DNA of 39,474 nt, from contig CALVAL010000013.1 in assembly GCA_944325535.1 (NCBI GenBank), forward strand, positions 1 through 39,474, written 5' to 3'. This document shows positions 25,714 through 39,020 of this stretch, piece after piece. The position numbers and the translations under genes are program-made. The first letter of the stretch is position 1. Every line of letters starts with the position of its first letter. The notes under the pieces are model-generated. The model was not told the origin of the DNA and ran no database searches. It saw only the letters and a program-made list of their open reading frames with translations. Origin of the DNA: Candidatus Gastranaerophilales bacterium. Its GTDB lineage: Bacteria > Cyanobacteriota > Vampirovibrionia > Gastranaerophilales > Gastranaerophilaceae.

Positions 25714-25780
25714 TAATTCTTAACAAAAAGACAAATTTTTGCTTTCACGTGTTTTAGGATTGCTGAAAGGTAATTGTATT

Positions 25781-26506
25781 ATGTTAAATTCTGTTAACTA
25801 TACTAATTCAAATCCTAAATTTGGTCATGGACATAGCTATAGTAATAGTACATATAATAAGCAAGAAAAGAGATTAATAGCTACAACTACAGCATTAGGT
25901 GTAATAGGAAGTTTAGCTTATTTGTCAAAGTCTGCAGGGTATTCCCTTAAACCTCAGAAAATGTTCAAGAACATAAAAAATAGCTATCTTGTAAAAGCTC
26001 CTTATAATGATGAAAAAGATATAATTACGATAGGAGCTGGATCTTGTCTTGGAGGTCTTTTAGGAGGATGTATTGTTGATAAAAATAAACAAAACAGAAA
26101 AGCAAAACTTCAAGAGACTTTATTGCAGATTGCAAATATATCTTTGCCAGCATTGTTTACAGTTAGATTTGCGAAAGCAGGGGAATATCTAGGTAGTAAG
26201 TTTTTAGAAAAGAATCCTCTTAAATCTACATATAAAACAACCATAGCAAAATCTACAGCTGCAATGACAGGATTAATGCTTGGGGTGTATTTTAGTAATA
26301 TCTTAGCTAATAAAGTAAATGAGATTATATTTAAACAAGGAAAAGGAAGACCTGTTAAATTAAGTGATTTTTCAGCTCATTTGGATGATATGTGTTTAGC
26401 AGCAAGACAATTTGGAGAACATCCTATAATTAATGCAGTATCTATGTTTATTCCTGTTGCATTAATGACTGCAGGTAATGAAATAGGCAATAAAACGGCA
26501 AATTAA
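25781..26506 (+). CDS. Hypothetical multi-helix membrane protein with N-terminal P-K-F-G motif
   Basis: I do not recognise this 241-residue protein. The start is ATG 25781 (AAAGG at 25766-25770). An upstream in-frame TTG at 25739 lacks a ribosome-binding site. The N-terminus is unusual: about 25 residues rich in N, S, T, Y and H with N-P-K-F-G-H-G at 11-17. It is followed by hydrophobic segments near 36-52, 78-98 (G-S-C-L-G-G-L-L-G-G-C), 118-135, 155-178 and 215-232. Glycine-rich helices suggest membrane packing. The N-terminal part resembles the start of the epimerase and GH13 proteins further on. A terminator follows directly. It could be an envelope or inclusion-membrane protein, and no function can be assigned. 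Confidence 0.7.
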   Translation: MLNSVNYTNSNPKFGHGHSYSNSTYNKQEKRLIATTTALGVIGSLAYLSKSAGYSLKPQKMFKNIKNSYLVKAPYNDEKDIITIGAGSCLGGLLGGCIVDKNKQNRKAKLQETLLQIANISLPALFTVRFAKAGEYLGSKFLEKNPLKSTYKTTIAKSTAAMTGLMLGVYFSNILANKVNEIIFKQGKGRPVKLSDFSAHLDDMCLAARQFGEHPIINAVSMFIPVALMTAGNEIGNKTAN

Positions 26507-28581: not shown

Positions 28582-29928
28582 ATGGATGGAGTAGATCAAG
28601 AGTATTTAGATAATTTAAAAATCAAGGTTCATGAAAAAATCGAGAACCTTGATTTATATCAATTTAAGGGCAGTGTATCTAAATTATTAGGATTAACTGT
28701 AGAAGTAAAATTACCGGGGCTTAAAATTGGTGATTTATGCTATATAGAAGCTGCAAATGGTGAAAAGAAACCTGCTGAAGTTGTTGCATTTAAAGGTGAT
28801 GCTGCTCAATTATTACTTTTATACGATGGAACAGGAATTGGACAAGGTAGTCTAGTGCAGACGACTGGTAAACCTATTATTATTCCTGTAGGGGATTTTC
28901 TTTTAGGTAGATTAATTAATCCTATGGGTGAACCTATTGATGGTAAGCCTCTTAATTTAGAGGGAGCAACTTGGCGTCCTGTAGAAGGACCTCCCCCAGG
29001 ACCTTTTGAAAGACCAATTATTACTGAAATGTTTTCTACTGGAGTACGAGCAATAGACTCTTGTCTTACATTTGGTTGCGGACAACGTATGGGATTATTT
29101 GCAGGCTCTGGAGTCGGTAAGAGTACTCTGCTTGGTATGATAGCAAGAAATTCTGATGCTGATGTAAACGTCGTAGCTCTAATAGGTGAACGTGGAAGAG
29201 AAGTTAAGGAATTTGTAGAGGATGCGCTTGGTCCAGAAGGTATGAAAAAGTCAGTTTTAGTATGTTCAACTGGAGACCAGCCTCCGTTAATTAGACAAAA
29301 GTGTCTCTTAACTGCAACTGCTGTTTGTGAGTACTTTAGAGATCAAGGAAAAAAAGTTTTTCTTATGACAGATACTGTAACTCGTTGTGCAATGGCAGGT
29401 CGTGAGGTTGGACTGTCAATCGGAGAACCACCTACGATGAAAGGTTATCCGCCTTCAATATTTTCTTGGCTTCAAAAGGTTCTTGAAAGAGCCGGAAATA
29501 GTCCAAAAGGCTCAATAACAGCTTTTTATACAGTACTTATGGAAGGTGATGACATTAATGACCCAATTGTAGATACCGTTCGGGGGATTACGGATGGTCA
29601 TATATTTTTATCAAGAAAAGTTGCAGAAGCAAACCATTATCCTGCAATAGATATATTAGGTAGTATTTCAAGACTTATGTCAGCTATAGCTTCTCAGCCG
29701 CATAAAGAAGCTGCTTCTAAGTTACGGAAAATAATGTCTATGTATCGTGAAAATAAGGATTTGATTGATGTTGGTATGTATCAGCCTGGTTCTAATCCAA
29801 AATTAGATACTGCTATTGAAATGATGCCAAAAATTAATGCTTTTTTACAACAAAGAACTACAGATAGTGTTAATATGCAAAATACAATTGATACACTGAT
29901 TAATATGATGTCTGGTGTAGATATTTAA
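28582..29928 (+). CDS. fliI: Flagellar/type III secretion ATPase FliI (SctN family)
   Basis: FliI is the hexameric ATPase on the cytoplasmic face of the flagellar or injectisome export gate; it unfolds substrates and releases them from chaperones. The 448-residue protein has Walker A G175-S-G-V-G-K180-S-T, Walker B V-F-L-M-T-D264, and the family blocks L-I-G-E-R-G-R-E-V, G-E-P-P-T-M-K-G-Y-P-P-S-I-F and E-G-D-D-I-N-D-P-I. The text D-T-V-R-G-I-T-D-G-H-I-F-L-S-R sits closer to flagellar FliI than to F1 ATPase. ATG 28582 has no ribosome-binding site and lies about 7 bases after a candidate -10, so translation may be leaderless. It heads a co-directional run with the coiled-coil, epimerase and glgA genes. 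Confidence 0.93.
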   Translation: MDGVDQEYLDNLKIKVHEKIENLDLYQFKGSVSKLLGLTVEVKLPGLKIGDLCYIEAANGEKKPAEVVAFKGDAAQLLLLYDGTGIGQGSLVQTTGKPIIIPVGDFLLGRLINPMGEPIDGKPLNLEGATWRPVEGPPPGPFERPIITEMFSTGVRAIDSCLTFGCGQRMGLFAGSGVGKSTLLGMIARNSDADVNVVALIGERGREVKEFVEDALGPEGMKKSVLVCSTGDQPPLIRQKCLLTATAVCEYFRDQGKKVFLMTDTVTRCAMAGREVGLSIGEPPTMKGYPPSIFSWLQKVLERAGNSPKGSITAFYTVLMEGDDINDPIVDTVRGITDGHIFLSRKVAEANHYPAIDILGSISRLMSAIASQPHKEAASKLRKIMSMYRENKDLIDVGMYQPGSNPKLDTAIEMMPKINAFLQQRTTDSVNMQNTIDTLINMMSGVDI

Positions 29929-29998
29929 AAATAGTTCTAATTAACTAGCAAATTTTATTTTTAGACGTTTTATACTTTTTAAAGAAAGGAATTTTGTC

Positions 29999-30331
29999 TT
30001 GAAAGTTACGTTACAGACCTACCAGCTGTCTTACAAAGCATCTGCCAGTGATTTAAAATTTTTGGACAGCATTCGTGATAAAAATGTTGCTGTATTTGAG
30101 AATTTGCAAAAGCAAAAAATTGAAACACTTCTAAAATACAGAGAAGTAAAAAAGGTTATAGAAAACTATCACAATCTTTTAAATAGCTACTCTAATACTA
30201 ATATTGCAGACGAAATAATAACAAATGCAAAAAGAGATTTAGAGGATATGAAAGTTTTTAAAGATACTTTATGGAATAAATTACGAGAAATAAATCTGGC
30301 TATTTTAGCAGAGGAAGAAAAAAATTATTAG
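29999..30331 (+). CDS. Small coiled-coil protein in fliJ position (FliJ/SctO-like)
   Basis: This 110-residue protein is almost wholly helical and charged. It starts with TTG at 29999, supported by AAAGGA at 29985-29990 with 8 bases of spacing. Two long helical stretches (about 15-60 and 67-108) are compatible with the antiparallel coiled coil of FliJ/SctO, the stalk protein that works inside the FliI hexamer, and it lies directly after fliI. FliJ is usually near 145 residues and I see no diagnostic residue, so the assignment rests on position and shape. The first 14 residues (ending Y-Q-L-S-Y-K-A) loosely resemble the N-terminal tag of neighbouring proteins. The epimerase follows after 11 bases. 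Confidence 0.62.
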   Translation: MKVTLQTYQLSYKASASDLKFLDSIRDKNVAVFENLQKQKIETLLKYREVKKVIENYHNLLNSYSNTNIADEIITNAKRDLEDMKVFKDTLWNKLREINLAILAEEEKNY

Positions 30332-30342
30332 GAAGGACCTGT

Positions 30343-31401
30343 ATGTTAATAGGAAAAATAAATTCTGGTAATTTAGGGTTTAAAGGAATATATGATCCAA
30401 ATGTATTAATTACCGGCAGTTCAGGATATATTGGAAGTCATTTAGTCCCAAAACTTGCTGATGACGGATTTAATTGTATAGTGTGTTGCAGAGATAAATA
30501 TAAACAGGAGTATCTAGATAGTATTATTGCTGAAATAAATCGCTATAAGACTGATAAAAGTTTCTGTTCTTTTGCAAATATTGATTTGACTAATGAAGCA
30601 GAAATTAATAGATTTTTAAAAGAAAATAAACTTGTGGATGTAGTTATTCACCTTGGAGGGGTAACATATAATTCCGAATCACTAGTTAATCCGCGGAAAT
30701 ATTATGATAACAATGTTATTGCCTCACGAAACCTTGTTAACTCTATGCTTGACAATGATGTTAAAAATATTTTGTATGTTTCAACAGCATCGATTTATCC
30801 TAAAACTGTTCAAGGAAAAGTTTCCGAAAAAAGAACACCTGTTCCAAAAACACCTTATGCAAAAACAAAATTTATTACAGAACATTTGATTAACGACTAT
30901 AAGGTTTATGATTTAAAATCTACAATCCTGAGAGTTTTTAATGTCGCAGGAGCTCACGGGTTTAATGATTTGGATATTGGTAAGAATGTAATAACAGTGC
31001 TCCTAAATTTAATAAAGAATGATAGACTATTTACATTAATGGGAAATGATTATCCTACCCCTGATGGTACCTGCGTAAAGGATTTTATCCATATTGATGA
31101 TGTGACAGATGCCATTGGTAAATCTGTTGCAAAACTTTTAGAGCCGAATACAACTTCCAAAACTTATAATTTAGGTACAGGTAAGGGCACTTCACTTGGA
31201 GAACTTATTCGAAAGAGTATTGATATCACAGGTAAGGAATTAAAGCTTCGTATAGGAGCAGCATTAAAAGACGAAGTACCAAGTCTAATTGCTGACAATA
31301 CAAAAATTAAAAAAGAGCTTGGCTGGATGCCTCAAAAAAATATTGATGAGATAATAACAAGCTGCTGGAAATGGTTGCTCCAGAACGGAGGTAAAAAATG
31401 A
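30343..31401 (+). CDS. NAD-dependent sugar-nucleotide epimerase (GalE-like) with N-terminal K-I-N/N-L-G-F-K-G tag
   Basis: This is an extended short-chain dehydrogenase of the UDP-glucose 4-epimerase type. The NAD motif is T-G-S-S-G-Y-I-G-S-H starting near residue 24. The catalytic S/T lies in V-S-T-A-S-I-Y-P, and Y-A-K-T-K (Y-x3-K) follows in T-P-Y-A-K-T-K. The late segment D-F-I-H-I-D-D-V is family-typical. Length is 352 residues, with about 18 extra residues before the Rossmann fold: K5-I-N, then N10-L-G-F-K-G15. The ATG follows GGAAGGACCTGT, 11 bases after the fliJ-position gene. The stop overlaps the glgA start (ATGA), so it is coupled to glycogen synthase. Activity on UDP-glucose/UDP-galactose is inferred; other hexose or N-acetylhexosamine substrates are possible. 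Confidence 0.85.
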   Translation: MLIGKINSGNLGFKGIYDPNVLITGSSGYIGSHLVPKLADDGFNCIVCCRDKYKQEYLDSIIAEINRYKTDKSFCSFANIDLTNEAEINRFLKENKLVDVVIHLGGVTYNSESLVNPRKYYDNNVIASRNLVNSMLDNDVKNILYVSTASIYPKTVQGKVSEKRTPVPKTPYAKTKFITEHLINDYKVYDLKSTILRVFNVAGAHGFNDLDIGKNVITVLLNLIKNDRLFTLMGNDYPTPDGTCVKDFIHIDDVTDAIGKSVAKLLEPNTTSKTYNLGTGKGTSLGELIRKSIDITGKELKLRIGAALKDEVPSLIADNTKIKKELGWMPQKNIDEIITSCWKWLLQNGGKK

Positions 31402-34019
31402 TATTAGCTATAAGTGTAAATAATACCGATTATACGAATAGTATACGTGCAAAAAAGTCTGAGAAATTAAAAAACAGATATTCTACAATTGTCTTTAGGG
31501 GTGGAGAAAATCCAAAACAGGTTGCATTTATTTCTTTCGAAACAGTTCCTATAAATAAAACAGGAGGTATGGCTGATGTAGTCGGAGAACTTGCCCCGGA
31601 ATTAAATAAACGAGGAATGGATGTGAGATGTATAATTCCAATGCTTAATGCTCAAGGTGGAGTTCCTGTGAATGATAAAGGCCGGCAAATATACAGAACT
31701 CCAAAAGGTAAGGAGTTTCCTATTGATGACCTTGGAATAGATTTTGATTACAATTATGGTACAAAAAGCGGAAAGGGGAGAATTTTTAAGGTAAATGACA
31801 GCCGTGTAAAGTTTCCAGTGTATGTTCTTTATTGTCCTGACGATGTTTCTAATAACAAGACGGAGTATCAGGGTTGGATAATGGATCAGGTTAAAAATCA
31901 GGAAGCTTTCTGTAAAGCAGGGCTTGAAGCTCTTAAAGAACTAAAAGACGCAGAAAAATTTAATCCTAAATATGTTATGTCATATGAATGGACAACAGCA
32001 CCTGTTATTGAGGCTATGAGTAAGGATGATTATTACAAAGACAAAATAAAAATTGCAAATATAAATAATTTTGGTCCTGTTTATCAAGGACGTGTGGGGG
32101 CACCTGTAGCAGCTCCATACCTTCTTGATAACAAAGAGCTGGAAAATCACTGTGCAGAACCACGTGTAAAAGTTCTTCTTGAAGAAATAGGCAGAGCTGT
32201 TGAAGCTAGAGCTGGTAAGCTGAATCCTTTGAACATAAATGACGAAATTTCCAGGGGTGATTATAAAGCTGCTTATCTGAAGGTCGCTGAAAATTATGAA
32301 AAATATATTCCATACACTACAAATCATCTTGGATTTATGGATAGTATGGTAATGGAGAGCTTTCCTAAAAAAGGATGGTTTAAACAATATTATAATTTTT
32401 ATGTGCCTGCAGTTAGGAAAGCTGATTCAATAGTAAGCTGTTCTGATACTTATATAAAAGAATTAGCAGAGGAAGACAGATATTCAGATGGTGTTTCTAA
32501 CCTGATGAACTTTGAAAGGCTTAAGAGTTTTGGTATAACAATTGGTATGGATTACAGCCTCCATAATCCTGCTGCAACAGAAAAAGAAACAACTAATCCG
32601 GTAAAGTATCCATTTTCTGCTAATGAAAATGAACTAAAAACTAATCCAAAATTGTTAGATTATAAAATCGGTAAAGCTATGAATAAATCTTATTTGCAAG
32701 AAATTTTAGGAGCAAAGATACCAGATAAGGAAACTGCTTTTAATAAATTAGTCGGAGCAAAGCAGTACGGATTTCTTGAAAATGAACCCAATGCACTAGT
32801 TTCAGTATTTATCACAAGATATGACCCACAGCAGAAAGGAGTTGATATTGCAATAAAGACTGCACAAAAATTGCTTGAAGAAGAAAAAGATGCGCAAATA
32901 ATTCTTGCAGGCCCAAATTTTAGTAAAGATTATGCACTTATAAAAGAGTATCTTGAGAATGTAGTTTATAAATATCTGGGCAGGGCGGTTTTATGTGACG
33001 GTTTTATAAACAATATTTCACAGTTTTATGCAGGTTCGGACACAGTTTTAATTCCGAGCAGATTTGCACCTTTTGAACTTGTTCAGCTTCAAGGTATGAG
33101 AATGGGCGCAATCCCGATTGTATCTAATGGGGGCGGGCTTGCAGAAATTATTGTTGATCCTCGAGAAGATAATGACGAAAAAATATTAGGATTTAAAACT
33201 GAAACGTCACTTTTTCTAACGCCGAATCCTTATAAATCGTATTGTGATACAATCAAACGAGCATTGGATGTTTATAAAAATCAGCCAGATAAGTGGGATA
33301 AAATGCTGTTAAACGGGCTCAGGTATAAAAGAACTTGGGATATACCCGCACAAAGATATTTGGAAACTGTGTTTAATCCTAAAAATTATAGTAATATCAA
33401 AGATTTGTTCTACTTAGATCCCAAATTTAGCACCGGTGAAATTTCAGCTGATGATAAACAAAAACAAAAAGAAGATTTTGAGTATCTAAAACACAAGGGA
33501 TTTACACAAATTATCCAAATTGATAAGGAGAATGAAAAACTAAAAAATCTTGCAACAAAATACAGTATAAAATATAAAAATATAGAATTCGGTGATACTC
33601 CGACAGAGGAAAGCACTGTAAAATTGCTAAAGGAAATTGATAATGATGCTGAAAAAAGTTTTATCAATGAATCTGAGGGTAAAAATAATAAGTCGGTACT
33701 GGCATGCTTCTATCTTGCATATAAAACTTTCGACAGTATTGATAAAATTATGTACAAAATTTGGACTGAGCGAGAGAAAGATTTTTATGACGTTATCTGG
33801 GGTGATAAGAATAAGATAAAAAATATAATGACAAAACTTTCAATCCTCGGTGAGAAATATAATCATGATATCAAAAAGCTTTCACTCGACGAGCTATTCA
33901 GTATTAATCCTAATATGATAAACATTACTCTAAGACGTACCCGAGAAATCGTAGAGAAATTCAGAGATTTAAATTCTTGGAAAGAGGTAGTATACTCGGG
34001 CAGACATTATATAAAGTAA
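31398..34019 (+). CDS. glgA: Enlarged glycogen/starch synthase (GT5), altered E-x7-E position
   Basis: GlgA extends alpha-1,4-glucan from ADP- or UDP-glucose. The ADP-glucose loop K54-T-G-G-M-A-D-V-V-G is intact, and the C-terminal GT domain has D-G-F-I-N-N-I-S-Q-F-Y-A-G-S-D and S-N-G-G-G-L-A-E-I. At 873 residues the protein is nearly twice the usual about 480: an N-terminal extension of about 39 residues with F33-R-G-G, extra sequence between the two halves, and about 180 extra C-terminal residues of unrecognised, lysine-rich helical character. The segment normally reading R-F-E-P-C-G-L-T-Q reads R-F-A557-P-F-E-L-V-Q, so the critical glutamate (E377 in E. coli) is alanine here. It overlaps the epimerase gene (ATGA). 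It could be active with shifted chemistry, or a glucan-binding paralogue. Confidence 0.86.
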   Translation: MILAISVNNTDYTNSIRAKKSEKLKNRYSTIVFRGGENPKQVAFISFETVPINKTGGMADVVGELAPELNKRGMDVRCIIPMLNAQGGVPVNDKGRQIYRTPKGKEFPIDDLGIDFDYNYGTKSGKGRIFKVNDSRVKFPVYVLYCPDDVSNNKTEYQGWIMDQVKNQEAFCKAGLEALKELKDAEKFNPKYVMSYEWTTAPVIEAMSKDDYYKDKIKIANINNFGPVYQGRVGAPVAAPYLLDNKELENHCAEPRVKVLLEEIGRAVEARAGKLNPLNINDEISRGDYKAAYLKVAENYEKYIPYTTNHLGFMDSMVMESFPKKGWFKQYYNFYVPAVRKADSIVSCSDTYIKELAEEDRYSDGVSNLMNFERLKSFGITIGMDYSLHNPAATEKETTNPVKYPFSANENELKTNPKLLDYKIGKAMNKSYLQEILGAKIPDKETAFNKLVGAKQYGFLENEPNALVSVFITRYDPQQKGVDIAIKTAQKLLEEEKDAQIILAGPNFSKDYALIKEYLENVVYKYLGRAVLCDGFINNISQFYAGSDTVLIPSRFAPFELVQLQGMRMGAIPIVSNGGGLAEIIVDPREDNDEKILGFKTETSLFLTPNPYKSYCDTIKRALDVYKNQPDKWDKMLLNGLRYKRTWDIPAQRYLETVFNPKNYSNIKDLFYLDPKFSTGEISADDKQKQKEDFEYLKHKGFTQIIQIDKENEKLKNLATKYSIKYKNIEFGDTPTEESTVKLLKEIDNDAEKSFINESEGKNNKSVLACFYLAYKTFDSIDKIMYKIWTEREKDFYDVIWGDKNKIKNIMTKLSILGEKYNHDIKKLSLDELFSINPNMINITLRRTREIVEKFRDLNSWKEVVYSGRHYIK

Positions 34020-34022
34020 TAA

Positions 34023-34050
34023 TTGTAATTTTATATTTATGTAATATAAT
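34023..34050 (+). promoter_or_regulatory. Candidate promoter of the giant GH13 gene
   Basis: TTGTAA (34023-34028), a 16-base spacer and TATAAT (34045-34050), just after the glgA stop. It leaves a leader of about 125 AT-rich bases, so the GH13 gene can be expressed separately from glgA. Confidence 0.5.
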
Positions 34051-34181
34051 AGAATGTAAAATTTAGTGGTAACGTGTATTATATACAATATTAAATTTTG
34101 TAAAATTTTTTGTTTGTATGCTTAAAATTTAGCAAAAATATTTTTTTTACAATCTTTATATATGTAGAAGGAGTCTCAAAA

Positions 34182-37100
34182 GTGTTTGTAAATAAGATTA
34201 ACGGTGTATCAAATTTAGGGTTTAAGGGTTATCAACATGTGAAAAATAATGTTGGTGAAACAATTATGAAGTTTAATTATCCTTATGACAGTGATAAGGA
34301 AACCTGTGAAGTACAAATTTTTAGAGCTGTTCCAACAGAAAAATATAATTATAAAATTGATGAGACTCCAATTACATCATTTTTCTTAAAACCAGAGGGT
34401 GTTGAGGTTGATATACAAGACCTTACTAATTTAGATAAGGATGCTCCTTTTGCTTATAAAATAGTTAGAAGAGATAAAGATTCTGGTAAAGTTATTTATG
34501 AAGGTCCTGATACAGGTGTAAAAATGAAGTCTCTTGGTAATGAATATGGCTTTAGAGTTCATAATGATAGAACTTGGTATCAGGTCAAAGATAAAGATGG
34601 TAATGTTATAAAAGCTTATGAAGGATATCAAGACCCTATAGAAAATTACCAGTATACTCTAGTTACTAGAAAAGGCACTACTCCGATGGTACAAGGAGCT
34701 GGATATCTTATCACTCCGGATTCATTAATGCCGGGTGCAATGTACAGAGGTTTTAAAGAAGAAAATACCGGAGAAATATACTACGATAAAGAATATCAAA
34801 AAAGGATGGAAGGAGTTATCAAAACTTTTTCAAACATATACGGGGGTAGTATTGCAGGTGCCCAAAGAATAATCCCATATTTAAAACAAAACGGATATAA
34901 ACTTATGTTCTCTACACCGATTGCAAACGGTTCAAAAGGCTGGTCTCTCGGATACTGGAATAAAAACAACATGCAGATTTCTCCTAACATGGGAAATACA
35001 GAAAATTTTGCATCATTTTTTAGAGATTTATATGCTAATGGTATGAAGTATGTTTATGATGGTACATTTACCTCAGAAGGTCTTGAAGGGATCCACTTCC
35101 AATATGCATTGAGATGGGCGGAAAAAAAACCGCAATCATATTACTGGTTCAGAATGAGCGGATTAAAAAATTCTAACCTCGGACTCGGAACTGTCCCTAA
35201 AAACAAAGAAAACTTGAGACATAGAGTTATAAATGCACCATATAATTATGAACTGCAATCCAATGGTACATATAAGGAAGTTGCAAACCCTAATTATAAT
35301 AAAAACAAAGAAACTCTTGTTCAAATATATGATGCTTCTCAAGCGAGTGATGAACAGCTTGGAAAATTAGATAAAGCTATTGAAAACTATGAAAAATTGA
35401 CCTCAGGAAATGAATTAGCTATCAACAACCATGATGATACAATTATCAACTTTGTATTCCAGATTAACCCTAATGAATATCGCAAACGAATTAATGTTAT
35501 TAATGAATTAAATAAAAACTTTGAGAAGCACATTCAATTAGATACTCCTGACGGAACTATAATAGCATGCGAATTCTCTAACTTTAAAATTGATAAGAAA
35601 ACAGAAGGCGGTTTTGTAACTTGGGATGCTAATACAGATATGGTAAAAATGAATTACCATATCTCAGGATATGATGAAAAATTATTACAAGCTATTCCGG
35701 ATAGAGCAAAACGTTATCAAGAGCAACAGATGATAGAACGTGGTGCAAGAGAAGTTCAGGATATGGCAATTCAAGCCGGAAAATATTGGACAGCAAAAGT
35801 TAATGATATACAAAAAATGTATATCGCTCAGACGGTTAGCGGAGTAAAAACCGTTGATGGAATTAATAAGCTTATTGAAGAAGGGAAATTACCTCAAGAA
35901 GCAAAGATTTCTGATAAAGTTCTAAATAACATCTTAAATGCTCAATACTTAGTAAAAGCAAAAGGTAATTTACCTAAAGATGATGTAACAGTAAAATCAT
36001 TGATGAAAATGCCATTAGATACTTTAGAGTTTGGCGAAAATACAGTAGGAGTAATAGCAACATCATATTTTTCTAATCGAGCAACTACAGATGATACAAT
36101 TGGTGTTTCAAGATTTGATTTGATGAAAAATGGAAACCCTCATTTAGTAGCTCCATATAGCAAAAACTATAAAAAAGTAAACAGTATGTATACAAATGAG
36201 GTTAAAGAGTTTGCAGATAAAATTATAAAAGAAGTTAATATCCATTCTAATGAAAAATTGTTAGATGCAAATGGTGACTATACTGAATACGGTGAATACG
36301 TTATAGAATTAGTAGGTCAAGATATTGCAAAGTATGCATTTTTAAAATCTTTAACTGGTGATAAGTTAAAAACAAAATTACTTAATAGTGGTGAAATTAC
36401 CTATGATTATGATTCTTTAAAAAATGATACAACTCTAAAATCATTGAAAATTAATGCTCATAATCCTGAAGACGAGGCTGAAATTTTAGCTCAAAAAATG
36501 CAAAAGGGTTTAAAATCTCTTAGTAAAGAAGATATTTCATATGTAGCAGAATCTATAAATAAAAGAATAGCTGGTACTGATACTGCAAGTTTCAGAATTG
36601 CAGAAGCTCTAAATGAAAGATCAGGACTTGGTCTTGATTGGAGATTAGATGCTGCAAAAGATGTTATGGATATGGATGCTATAAGAAATGGTGATAATGA
36701 TTTCAATGACAATTGGAATGATGTAATAGACTTTTGGAAAAAATTTGTTCAAGGTATAAAGTCTGAAAACCCTAATTCCTATATTGTTGCTGAAATTACA
36801 GATATTCCAGATTTAATGCGTGGTACGTATGGATCTGATTCTTGTCCTTATAATGGTTGGACAAATGTAAATAATGCAAAGTTTAATGGAGAACCTGATT
36901 CTTTAGCAAAATTCTTTAATGAAACAGGTATAACATCTGAAGCTGGTTATTCTTATTTCTTTACAGATTTATTAACAATATTTGCTCCTTCATTCGATGA
37001 AGGAAATGGCGAATCTACAAATCATGATAGATTCAGAAAGCGTATGGATTTATTACTACATACAAGAAGCGTTGATTATTTAAGAAATCTATACACATTT

Positions 37101-39020
37101 ATGGGTAATCATGATAAGCCAAGACTAATTCATGGTTTGGCACTTGATATGAAATTATTCCATGATAGTGGTGATAAACTTCAAAATAGATTAGATGCAT
37201 TGCAAGTTTTATCAGATTCAAAGTCTATTAATGAAATACCAATAGAATTAAAATTAAATGCAGCTAATCCTGAATACTTTAGAACATTAAGTACTAAGGC
37301 AATAGCAATGAGTAAGCTTCTTAAGGATGTTCTAAATAATGATATTGGAAATGTTGTATCTGATGAAGATAAAAAACTAATTAATTCAGCTATTGTAGAT
37401 TTGACAAATGGTAATTATTTAGGTGAAGGTGTTACCAATAATTTCCAAGTTGTTAATATTAAAGAATTATCAAGCATAGAAAATGCTTTTAATGAAATCA
37501 TAAAAATAGCAGAAGAAAAGTATAGTCTTAAACTAACAGAAAAAGAAAAATCTGAGTTATTAGCTTCAATACAAGAAAATGTAAATAAGAATTTTAGAGA
37601 TTATCTTGTAAAAGGAAAATTTGAAGGTGATGATGAACAAAGTGTTTATAATAGAAAATTAGCTAGTATGCTACTTAATAAGAATAACAAATTAGAAGAT
37701 ATTTCTAATAGTACAGTATCAAATACAAGTGGTTTTAATCAATATAATTTATACACAGTTAATTTAGCTGCATTAATAAGAGATTCTTATGTTGCATCAG
37801 GAAAAGCTGCAAATGCAAAAGATTCTATATTTAGTGCGGTGAAAGATTTTGTTGAAAAATATGATGAAAATATGGTTAAAAGCAATTCTTCAGAACTTCC
37901 AAAAATAGAAGACCCTGTAATAGGAATGAGAAAGAATGGCTATGCAGCAAGAGATATAAGAACTGCAATTTCTATGGCAATAAAGCAAGCAGAGTATAAA
38001 TCTGGTAAAGAAATTGCTAATAAACAAGCTGTTATTGATAATGTTTATAAAGCTGCAACAGAACCTGCAGAGGCAAAATCAGAAATGATAATGGAATACT
38101 TAAAAGGTTTATTTGGTATTCCAACAATGTTTGCTGGTGATGAGCTAGGAATGAGTGGTTATGAAGAAAAAGCTAAAAATATTTATTTACAAAATAGAAA
38201 TGCTCTTCCTTGGGAACAATTAAATGAGGATAATTTAATTGGAAACTATAGAAAAACAGTTATGAATAGAATGAACGAAACTGTAAAATCTCGTTCAGAT
38301 AATGAATTACAAGCTTTGAATAATGGTACTCCATATGCTTTAGATGTTTTAGTAAATTCTAAGAATAGAGATGCTGTTCAAGGTCGTATTTACCAAATAA
38401 ATGATGAGTTAAAGAATAATTCTATAGATGCTAAAACAAGAGAAGCATTAGAAAAAGAAAGCAGAGAATTGTCTAAGCAATTAGCAAAAATTGCATATAT
38501 GATGCAAAATGCAAATGGAGATATGACAGTTACTCTAATGAATGCTGGAGACGTAGAATTTGGTAATAGAGTTGATTATTTTGCAAAATATGGTTTAGAT
38601 ACTGAAGAAAAACGCAAGAAATTCTTTGAAGAAAACAACATTGATTCTATCAATCCAGAAAATAGATATGTACCAATTCTTCCTAAATCAGAAGTTGACT
38701 CTATATTATTAGCCGCTGGTGTTTCAATTCCTGTTGGAACAATCTTTATGAACTCAAATACTAGAGATAAAGCTAGGTATGTTGTAAAAGATTTAGGTAA
38801 TGGGATGCGTGGTATTGTAAAAGAAGGTGGCGGAAAAATTATAATGGATGGTCTTACTTCTAAAAATGGAGTAATGATATTGAAGCATATTAAAAATATA
38901 GTATTTAAAGGAAATAAACATAGAGAATACTATAATCCTCAATACAATTTTGTTTCAAATCCATATAAACAAAAAGAAATCCCTGTAGAAGGAGAAAAGT
39001 TATCATTACTTTCAAAATAG
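34182..39020 (+). CDS. Giant GH13 alpha-amylase-family protein with N-terminal K-I-N/N-L-G-F-K-G tag
   Basis: This 1,612-residue protein belongs to glycoside hydrolase family 13 (alpha-amylase/branching/transfer enzymes). The GTG start at 34182 has AGAAGGAG just upstream; a longer open frame to 34110 lacks such support. Order: tag (K5-I-N, N11-L-G-F-K-G16); a beta-rich N-terminal domain (about 20-210, CBM48-like); barrel start with a region-I-like Y-D293-G-T-F; nucleophile region W-R821-L-D823-A-A-K; acid/base V-A-E871-I-T-D; N-H-D978; and late G-I-P-T-M-F-A-G-D-E-L near 1312. All three catalytic acids are present. The spacing between regions I and II (530 residues) and after region IV (334) is far larger than usual, so the barrel has big helical insertions. 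No signal peptide is seen. Substrate is probably glycogen/starch; hydrolysis versus transfer is undetermined. Confidence 0.84.
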   Translation: MFVNKINGVSNLGFKGYQHVKNNVGETIMKFNYPYDSDKETCEVQIFRAVPTEKYNYKIDETPITSFFLKPEGVEVDIQDLTNLDKDAPFAYKIVRRDKDSGKVIYEGPDTGVKMKSLGNEYGFRVHNDRTWYQVKDKDGNVIKAYEGYQDPIENYQYTLVTRKGTTPMVQGAGYLITPDSLMPGAMYRGFKEENTGEIYYDKEYQKRMEGVIKTFSNIYGGSIAGAQRIIPYLKQNGYKLMFSTPIANGSKGWSLGYWNKNNMQISPNMGNTENFASFFRDLYANGMKYVYDGTFTSEGLEGIHFQYALRWAEKKPQSYYWFRMSGLKNSNLGLGTVPKNKENLRHRVINAPYNYELQSNGTYKEVANPNYNKNKETLVQIYDASQASDEQLGKLDKAIENYEKLTSGNELAINNHDDTIINFVFQINPNEYRKRINVINELNKNFEKHIQLDTPDGTIIACEFSNFKIDKKTEGGFVTWDANTDMVKMNYHISGYDEKLLQAIPDRAKRYQEQQMIERGAREVQDMAIQAGKYWTAKVNDIQKMYIAQTVSGVKTVDGINKLIEEGKLPQEAKISDKVLNNILNAQYLVKAKGNLPKDDVTVKSLMKMPLDTLEFGENTVGVIATSYFSNRATTDDTIGVSRFDLMKNGNPHLVAPYSKNYKKVNSMYTNEVKEFADKIIKEVNIHSNEKLLDANGDYTEYGEYVIELVGQDIAKYAFLKSLTGDKLKTKLLNSGEITYDYDSLKNDTTLKSLKINAHNPEDEAEILAQKMQKGLKSLSKEDISYVAESINKRIAGTDTASFRIAEALNERSGLGLDWRLDAAKDVMDMDAIRNGDNDFNDNWNDVIDFWKKFVQGIKSENPNSYIVAEITDIPDLMRGTYGSDSCPYNGWTNVNNAKFNGEPDSLAKFFNETGITSEAGYSYFFTDLLTIFAPSFDEGNGESTNHDRFRKRMDLLLHTRSVDYLRNLYTFMGNHDKPRLIHGLALDMKLFHDSGDKLQNRLDALQVLSDSKSINEIPIELKLNAANPEYFRTLSTKAIAMSKLLKDVLNNDIGNVVSDEDKKLINSAIVDLTNGNYLGEGVTNNFQVVNIKELSSIENAFNEIIKIAEEKYSLKLTEKEKSELLASIQENVNKNFRDYLVKGKFEGDDEQSVYNRKLASMLLNKNNKLEDISNSTVSNTSGFNQYNLYTVNLAALIRDSYVASGKAANAKDSIFSAVKDFVEKYDENMVKSNSSELPKIEDPVIGMRKNGYAARDIRTAISMAIKQAEYKSGKEIANKQAVIDNVYKAATEPAEAKSEMIMEYLKGLFGIPTMFAGDELGMSGYEEKAKNIYLQNRNALPWEQLNEDNLIGNYRKTVMNRMNETVKSRSDNELQALNNGTPYALDVLVNSKNRDAVQGRIYQINDELKNNSIDAKTREALEKESRELSKQLAKIAYMMQNANGDMTVTLMNAGDVEFGNRVDYFAKYGLDTEEKRKKFFEENNIDSINPENRYVPILPKSEVDSILLAAGVSIPVGTIFMNSNTRDKARYVVKDLGNGMRGIVKEGGGKIIMDGLTSKNGVMILKHIKNIVFKGNKHREYYNPQYNFVSNPYKQKEIPVEGEKLSLLSK

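Follow-up and report, generated by a model that had tools for sequence, protein, structure and literature searches.

The stretch of DNA considered here (the window, 39,474 nucleotides) belongs to a Candidatus Gastranaerophilales bacterium and represents contig 13 of its draft genome of 1.99 Mb (G000, hereafter the source genome). Four consecutive genes of the window (29999-39020) all encode proteins beginning with a short N-terminal tag, in which a start box and a phenylalanine (Phe) box are joined by a variable polar linker, and tags of this kind recur on proteins of unrelated fold. With moderate confidence, the tag can be read as a bipartite targeting peptide recognized by a receptor, the cargo being made together. 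More tentatively, it may belong to a dedicated sorting pathway of the lineage's own, where a Phe-box address, a putative receptor, and a cargo promoter would bring paralogues of cytosolic enzymes to a site or structure never seen. A sorting-type signal is the most economical reading of the observations below. The tagged proteins of the window are as follows:

29999-30331, + strand: tagged 110-residue protein, encoded by the first gene of the block and without a match in Pfam
29999-30040, + strand: N-terminal tag of the 110-residue protein, MKVTLQTYQLSYKA (SYKA)
30343-31401, + strand: tagged GalE-like NAD-dependent epimerase, 352 residues (Pfam PF01370, 2.6e-43)
30343-30387, + strand: N-terminal tag of the epimerase, MLIGKINSGNLGFKG, followed by IYD (K5-I-N and N10-L-G-F-K-G15)
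31398-34019, + strand: tagged glycogen/starch-synthase-like (GlgA-like) glycosyltransferase, 873 residues (PF08323, 2.6e-19; PF13692, 1.2e-13)
31398-31502, + strand: N-terminal tag of the glycosyltransferase, closing with STIVFRG (VFRG being residues 32-35)
34182-39020, + strand: tagged 1612-residue protein with an alpha-amylase (GH13) domain at residues 208-326 (PF00128, 5.5e-9); start codon GTG at 34182 with AAGGAG 5' of it
34182-34229, + strand: N-terminal tag of the GH13 protein, MFVNKINGVSNLGFKG, followed by YQH (K5-I-N and N11-L-G-F-K-G16)
25781-25825, + strand: degenerate tag, MLNSVNYTNSNPKFG (NPKFGH), on a predicted membrane protein outside the block

An earlier note on this DNA had described the tags of the epimerase and the GH13 protein, and the sequence bears them out. 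The looser versions that it saw on the GlgA-like and the 110-residue protein (VFRG and SYKA) also hold, their ends being kept in orthologues, while the one at 25781 is degenerate as a tag, yet preceded by half of the upstream element described below. The note had further considered it informative that the coding DNA of the epimerase and GH13 tags is nearly identical over 17 bases (AATTTAGGGTTTAAAGG at 30370-30386 and AATTTAGGGTTTAAGGG at 34212-34228, one mismatch). These two are the sole exact matches to that peptide-level pattern genome-wide. However, with the six residues fixed and the codon usage of the source genome, at least 16 of 17 identical bases are expected with P = 0.196, so that the DNA identity requires no further explanation and common DNA ancestry of the two tags could be discarded. 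The signal lies in the peptide, not in the DNA.

The recurrence of the tag was followed in ~0.83 Mb (828 kb, 42%) of the source genome sampled as stretches, with genes called by a simple start-scoring script. A fixed loose definition was used, anchored at the start and aware of the linker, which by construction excludes hydrophobic runs, and the shuffled controls kept the first three residues and permuted residues 4-70. Enrichment over shuffled sequences, a test set beforehand in the earlier note, was found: the tag occurs on 43 of 796 proteins, compared with 12.8 in shuffles (maximum 23 in 60 shuffles), and the note's own motif, [NS]xx[FY][KR]G, occurs eight times against 1.5 (maximum 5). A stricter motif, derived from a single family of orthologues, gave 11 matches against 1.17 (maximum 4 in 100 shuffles). 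Among 1294 proteins of negative-control DNA, i.e., GTDB-contig loci with unrelated AAA proteins and none from the order, the strict motif was absent and the loose tag showed no excess over shuffles. Examples of tagged N-termini in the source genome are MNISPINSALNFRG, MKVNSNRDISFKG, MVQSVNTPINFKA, MKINANTQYNQQFNG, MNLNNVSNQNFRG, and MRITPIYSKS...NTGMNFKG, with dozens alike. Smaller samples were clearly positive in the sister genome G020 and, for further genera of the family and further families of the order, yielded single clear tags. Overall, about 4-5% of genus g1 proteins carry the tag, which by extrapolation would give some 70-100 tagged genes scattered over the genome. Simple a-x-b dipeptide enrichment failed to pick out the motif, and frameless scans for ATG-AWR-ATH...TTY-ARR-GS in 146 and 57 genomes were too noisy to count, with isolated in-frame tags visible.

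Direct orthologues, whose lack of a tag the earlier note had named as telling against it, keep the tag. One tagged AAA ATPase was compared in 28 orthologues from families f1, f3, f6, and f7 (33-72% identity). These retain both tag ends, with the start M-[RKN]-[IV]-x-[PK]-[IVL] in nearly all and the end [IVL]-[NST]-F-[KRQNC]-[GAS], while the N/S/T/Q-rich linker between them varies in length and sequence. In a 23-member alignment of this protein, Phe54 of the box is invariant, as are further residues, many of them catalytic (e.g., G276-T-G-K279). Orthologues of the epimerase begin with MKINRINYPNQNTGFKG and MIVNKASSSNTTFKG, the three tag ends including the window copy being GFKG, GFKG, and TFKG. 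The tag of the 110-residue protein ends in SYKA in the window, SYRA in G019, and SYKA in G003, and those of GlgA orthologues end in ISFRS and LSFRA. More distant GlgA homologues from family f3 (~30% identity) end in LSFTG or LSFSG behind unrelated prefixes.

In the epimerase, the tag has been added to an otherwise normal enzyme, as the nearest untagged relatives (35-40% identity) begin at the first Rossmann strand of the catalytic fold. Their alignments open at query residue 15-21, and one of these relatives (G000:C36) is encoded by the source genome itself. AlphaFold assigned a predicted local distance difference test score (pLDDT) below 50 to residues 1-15 of the epimerase, where the first strand follows at residue 20, and to residues 1-58 of the AAA protein, where the tag ends at residue 56 and the fold starts just after. 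The prefixes are 8-56 residues long, rich in asparagine (23.5% vs 6.7%), and poor in acidic residues (D+E 3.6% vs 12.9%), with N and I abundant in the start region. Behind the Phe box there is little residue preference, and the sequences that follow are unrelated between proteins.

The cargo includes carbohydrate-type proteins, namely the GalE-like and GlgA-like proteins, two GH13 proteins, and a sugar-nucleotidyltransferase in G202. Contrary to what was first proposed, the tag is not particular to carbohydrate enzymes; it is also carried by two dual-specificity/tyrosine phosphatases, three AAA ATPases, one of them closest by fold to p97 N-D1, an HD-domain protein, and many proteins without a known family, as well as by an ankyrin protein in another family. 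The 110-residue protein had been labelled by its fliJ position, which is misleading, since the block 29999-39020 follows fliI in G000, G003, and G019 only and not in other sister genomes. By this synteny, a FliJ identity was rejected. With the block behind fliI in just three related species, it is an accessory module, linked only incidentally to the flagellar ATPase.

Upstream of tagged genes, an alignment revealed the shared DNA element TAGCAAA-(A/T)n-TTTTTA-N3-GTTTTA, with these copies in the window:

29946-29976, + strand: promoter-like element before the tagged block, TAGCAAATTTTATTTTTAGACGTTTTATACT
34130-34160, + strand: promoter-like element before the GH13 gene, TAGCAAAAATATTTTTTTTACAATCTTTATA
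25743-25756, + strand: downstream half of the element before the gene at 25781, TTTCACGTGTTTTA, read from sequence

The G019 orthologue of the block is preceded by the same element (TAGCAAATTTTATTTTTACGTGTTTTATA). TAGCAAA lies within 150 nucleotides upstream of 15 of 44 tagged but only 24 of 657 other genes (p = 7e-10), and several apparently untagged genes with the element proved on inspection to be tagged yet missed by the definition (MKIKNVAPVNFNA, MDIVCNTKFQPTFTS, and MKVQSTPQYQNKNVNFKN). For the strict element in the source genome, the downstream gene was tagged in eight cases and not in one (p = 3e-9). Whole-genome counts found 29 element sites in the source genome against none for the reversed control. 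Across 80 whole genomes, genus g1 had 4-32 sites, the remaining genera of the family had 0-21, the remaining families of the order 0-8, and cyanobacteria 0-2, and four class outgroups had no sites. The element may most simply be viewed as a promoter.

Elsewhere in the source genome, three tagged genes stand in a row (L048:17106-19165, G000:C10), of which two are paralogous (MNINSINNLNFGAK and MNISQINNINFGAK) and each have their own TAGCAAA element 38 nucleotides upstream. Another locus (L041:16287-18812, G000:C5) displays a tandem array of three paralogous genes without a known function, starting MLNINP[MI]N.Y.KSN..FKSQKD and adjoining a tagged dual-specificity phosphatase. The tagged nucleotidyltransferase of G202 (L186:5110-6909) carries two boxes, QVFKG and INFKG, within its first 55 residues.

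A start box and a Phe box on a flexible linker before a folded enzyme have the anatomy of a linear targeting motif, and this anatomy, together with the presumed co-expression and the lineage restriction, suggests a dedicated sorting route. The tag would accordingly be pictured as a bipartite, intrinsically disordered targeting peptide. Its start, M-[K/R/N]-[I/V]-x-x-[I/V], would be fixed, the linker behind it (~5-50 residues, rich in N/S/T/Q/P) would be free, and the box [I/L/V]-[N/S/T]-F-[K/R/Q]-[G/A/S] would close the tag directly before the folded domain. A putative receptor would read the Phe-basic-small box, and perhaps the start too, and thereby bring cytosolic-type enzymes (the GalE paralogue, the GlgA-like and GH13 proteins, phosphatases, AAA ATPases, and others) to one place, which might be in, on, or outside the cell. 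As the cargo genes may often be transcribed from one lineage-specific promoter-like element, their products would be made as a regulon. Of the sorting, assembly, or export signal first suggested, the recurrent, conserved, and disordered add-on to unrelated folds stands, while its actual function is something we infer.

Several observations weigh against this reading. The tag score of a single protein is weak, with ~14 of 45 loose calls expected from composition, and the excess is small in samples from outside genus g1. The tag itself was counted in sampled DNA, and the whole-genome distribution counts cover the upstream element. This element precedes only ~1/3 of the tagged genes, and its p-value in the source genome is partly circular because it was derived from that genome's own tagged genes; independent tests are the whole-genome counts and the tag-element association in other genomes, the latter giving p = 0.005 for the loose and 0.15 for the strict pattern. 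The analysis brought up no receptor, protease, or destination, and export from the cell would be odd, as several cargo enzymes need cytosolic ATP and nucleotide sugars.

Among the alternatives, the tag may be a type III (flagellar-type) export signal, i.e., a disordered polar N-terminus fed to the FlhA/FlhB gate so that the cargo leaves the cell. Type III secretion signals are N-terminal, disordered, and rich in S, T, N, and I, and the tags share both the disorder and the polarity; we know of no such signal with a conserved Phe box, in which the tag differs. The presence of a flagellar-type gate keeps export by this route in consideration, as 117 of 117 family genomes and every sampled member of the order have FlhA, and the tagged block sits behind fliI. 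There is also a chlamydial precedent for glycogen-type enzymes as cargo, since GlgA of C. trachomatis is reported to be secreted and nearly all of its glycogen enzymes to bear type III signals (PMC3722199, PMC4829429). However, the fliI neighbourhood is not conserved, the flagellin at L043:215-1306 starts MATITINTN without the tag, the element is missing upstream of the G020 flagellin and FliD, and class outgroups in f8 have FlhA and no element. Dependence on a second type III gate was rejected, as element counts do not follow the second FlhA class (with g1 excluded, the 11 family genomes that have it average 5.7 sites and the 20 that lack it 6.6). Taken together, type III export is unlikely. 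A degron is slightly less probable still: here, the disordered start and short motif would be recognized by an AAA+ protease, so that products of the regulon are removed together. M-basic-hydrophobic starts occur among ClpX N-motifs too, which counts in its favour, but the key part of N-motif 1 differs from F-[KR]-[GA], the part kept here. It is the lambda O signal for ClpX, TNTAKILNFGR (PMC8138137), likewise a disordered N-terminus, that keeps this rival in view, as its L-N-F-G stretch resembles by eye tags such as MNISQINNINFGAK. Yet, ClpX is near-universal while the tag is restricted to a lineage and linked to an element, and many tagged proteins are large enzymes whose constitutive breakdown would be wasteful.

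The tag could also be a propeptide, cut by a protease after [G/A/S] and holding the protein inactive or soluble until then. The box does end in a small residue directly before the fold, like the sites of signal peptidase and transit peptides, but the position behind it shows little preference, some tags have two boxes (as MKVEKISQNQVFKG...IINFKG in G202), and no candidate protease is at hand, so that this explanation appears quite improbable. Far less credence is given to a by-product of translation, where A/T-rich first codons (AAA, AAT, ATT) aid initiation and give M-K-I-N starts: N, I, and K do have A/T-rich codons, and the first two of these residues abound in the start region, yet this leaves the invariant Phe box, its variable distance of up to 56 codons, and the lineage-specific upstream element unexplained. 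Chance, in the form of low-complexity starts and a common tripeptide in an A/T-rich genome, is just as hard to credit; while it may account for the ~1/3 of loose matches expected from composition, it is contradicted by orthologue conservation across families in the alignments, by the strict motif (11 vs 1.2), and by the lack of excess in control DNA.

As for the flagellar-type export genes themselves, two FlhA classes were distinguished (G000:C39:13589-15580 and family genomes), one that scores ~715-735 bits and is present in nearly every family genome, and another of ~870 bits in a subset of genera, where it lies in a FliP-Q-R-FlhB-FlhA cluster; many family members have two flagellar-type export systems together. 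Most members of the order encode a third frame of ~490 residues matching only the C-terminal half of FlhA (profile ~310-655, 145-184 bits; e.g., G032:C1:53574-54587 and G027:C1:554305-555333), possibly a stand-alone FlhA-C-like protein. Two FliI-type ATPases, ~50% identical, are found per genome (window 28582-29928 and G000:C10:30651-31892), the window FliI being the copy that, in other families, adjoins the widespread FlhA class.

Organelle-bearing eukaryotic cells commonly use general address tags on soluble enzymes, but in bacteria such tags are rare, and those known are linked to Sec/Tat, sortases, type III/IV export, or protein shells. If the targeting reading is true, the tag would represent an undescribed sorting system for perhaps 70-100 proteins with their own upstream element. 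The host group is large, lives in the gut, is kin to the cyanobacteria from which plastids descend, and is known almost only from genomes. The tag would offer a direct handle on the cell biology of this barely cultured lineage, and annotators could group many unknown proteins into one regulon. The N-terminal targeting peptide is known as a broad idea; what is new is the mismatch with every described bacterial signal compared here, none of whose definitions the tag fits. The open-access literature, the part covered by our search (subscription papers and preprints lay outside it), gave no account of such a tag.

In the window, the tags contain neither the hydrophobic stretch nor the Cys or RR pair of Sec, Tat, or lipoprotein signals. 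A type IV prepilin leader would have a small residue at -1 and then a hydrophobic helix with E5, whereas the sequences after the box have nothing in common between proteins. Encapsulin and microcompartment peptides are likewise short tags on ordinary enzymes, and encapsulin cargo-loading peptides also end in a basic-Gly pair; however, encapsulin peptides are usually C-terminal, and the amphipathic helix of microcompartment peptides is absent from residues 1-15 of the epimerase model (pLDDT below 50). Both kinds of cargo were rejected, as the encapsulin shell (PF04454) and the microcompartment shell (PF00936) were each found in 0 of 34 genomes, with positive controls detected. Extracellular contractile injection systems load few effectors, in contrast to the some 70-100 scattered genes extrapolated here. 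Their loading signals are likewise N-terminal and found on varied cargo, with an AAA ATPase taking part in loading (PMC11495950). Compared with transit peptides of plastids and cyanelles, as studied in Cyanophora paradoxa (PMC4510345), the tag differs in that the cyanelle Phe lies within residues 1-10 and serine and alanine dominate, whereas here asparagine dominates and the Phe box closes the tag; moreover, a bacterium has no plastid envelope, and no import machine is known here. Yet, both are polar, acid-poor N-terminal extensions on unrelated soluble enzymes, absent from untagged homologues of the tagged proteins, with a required or favoured phenylalanine and a normal catalytic fold behind. 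By analogy only, the tag would work most like a transit peptide.

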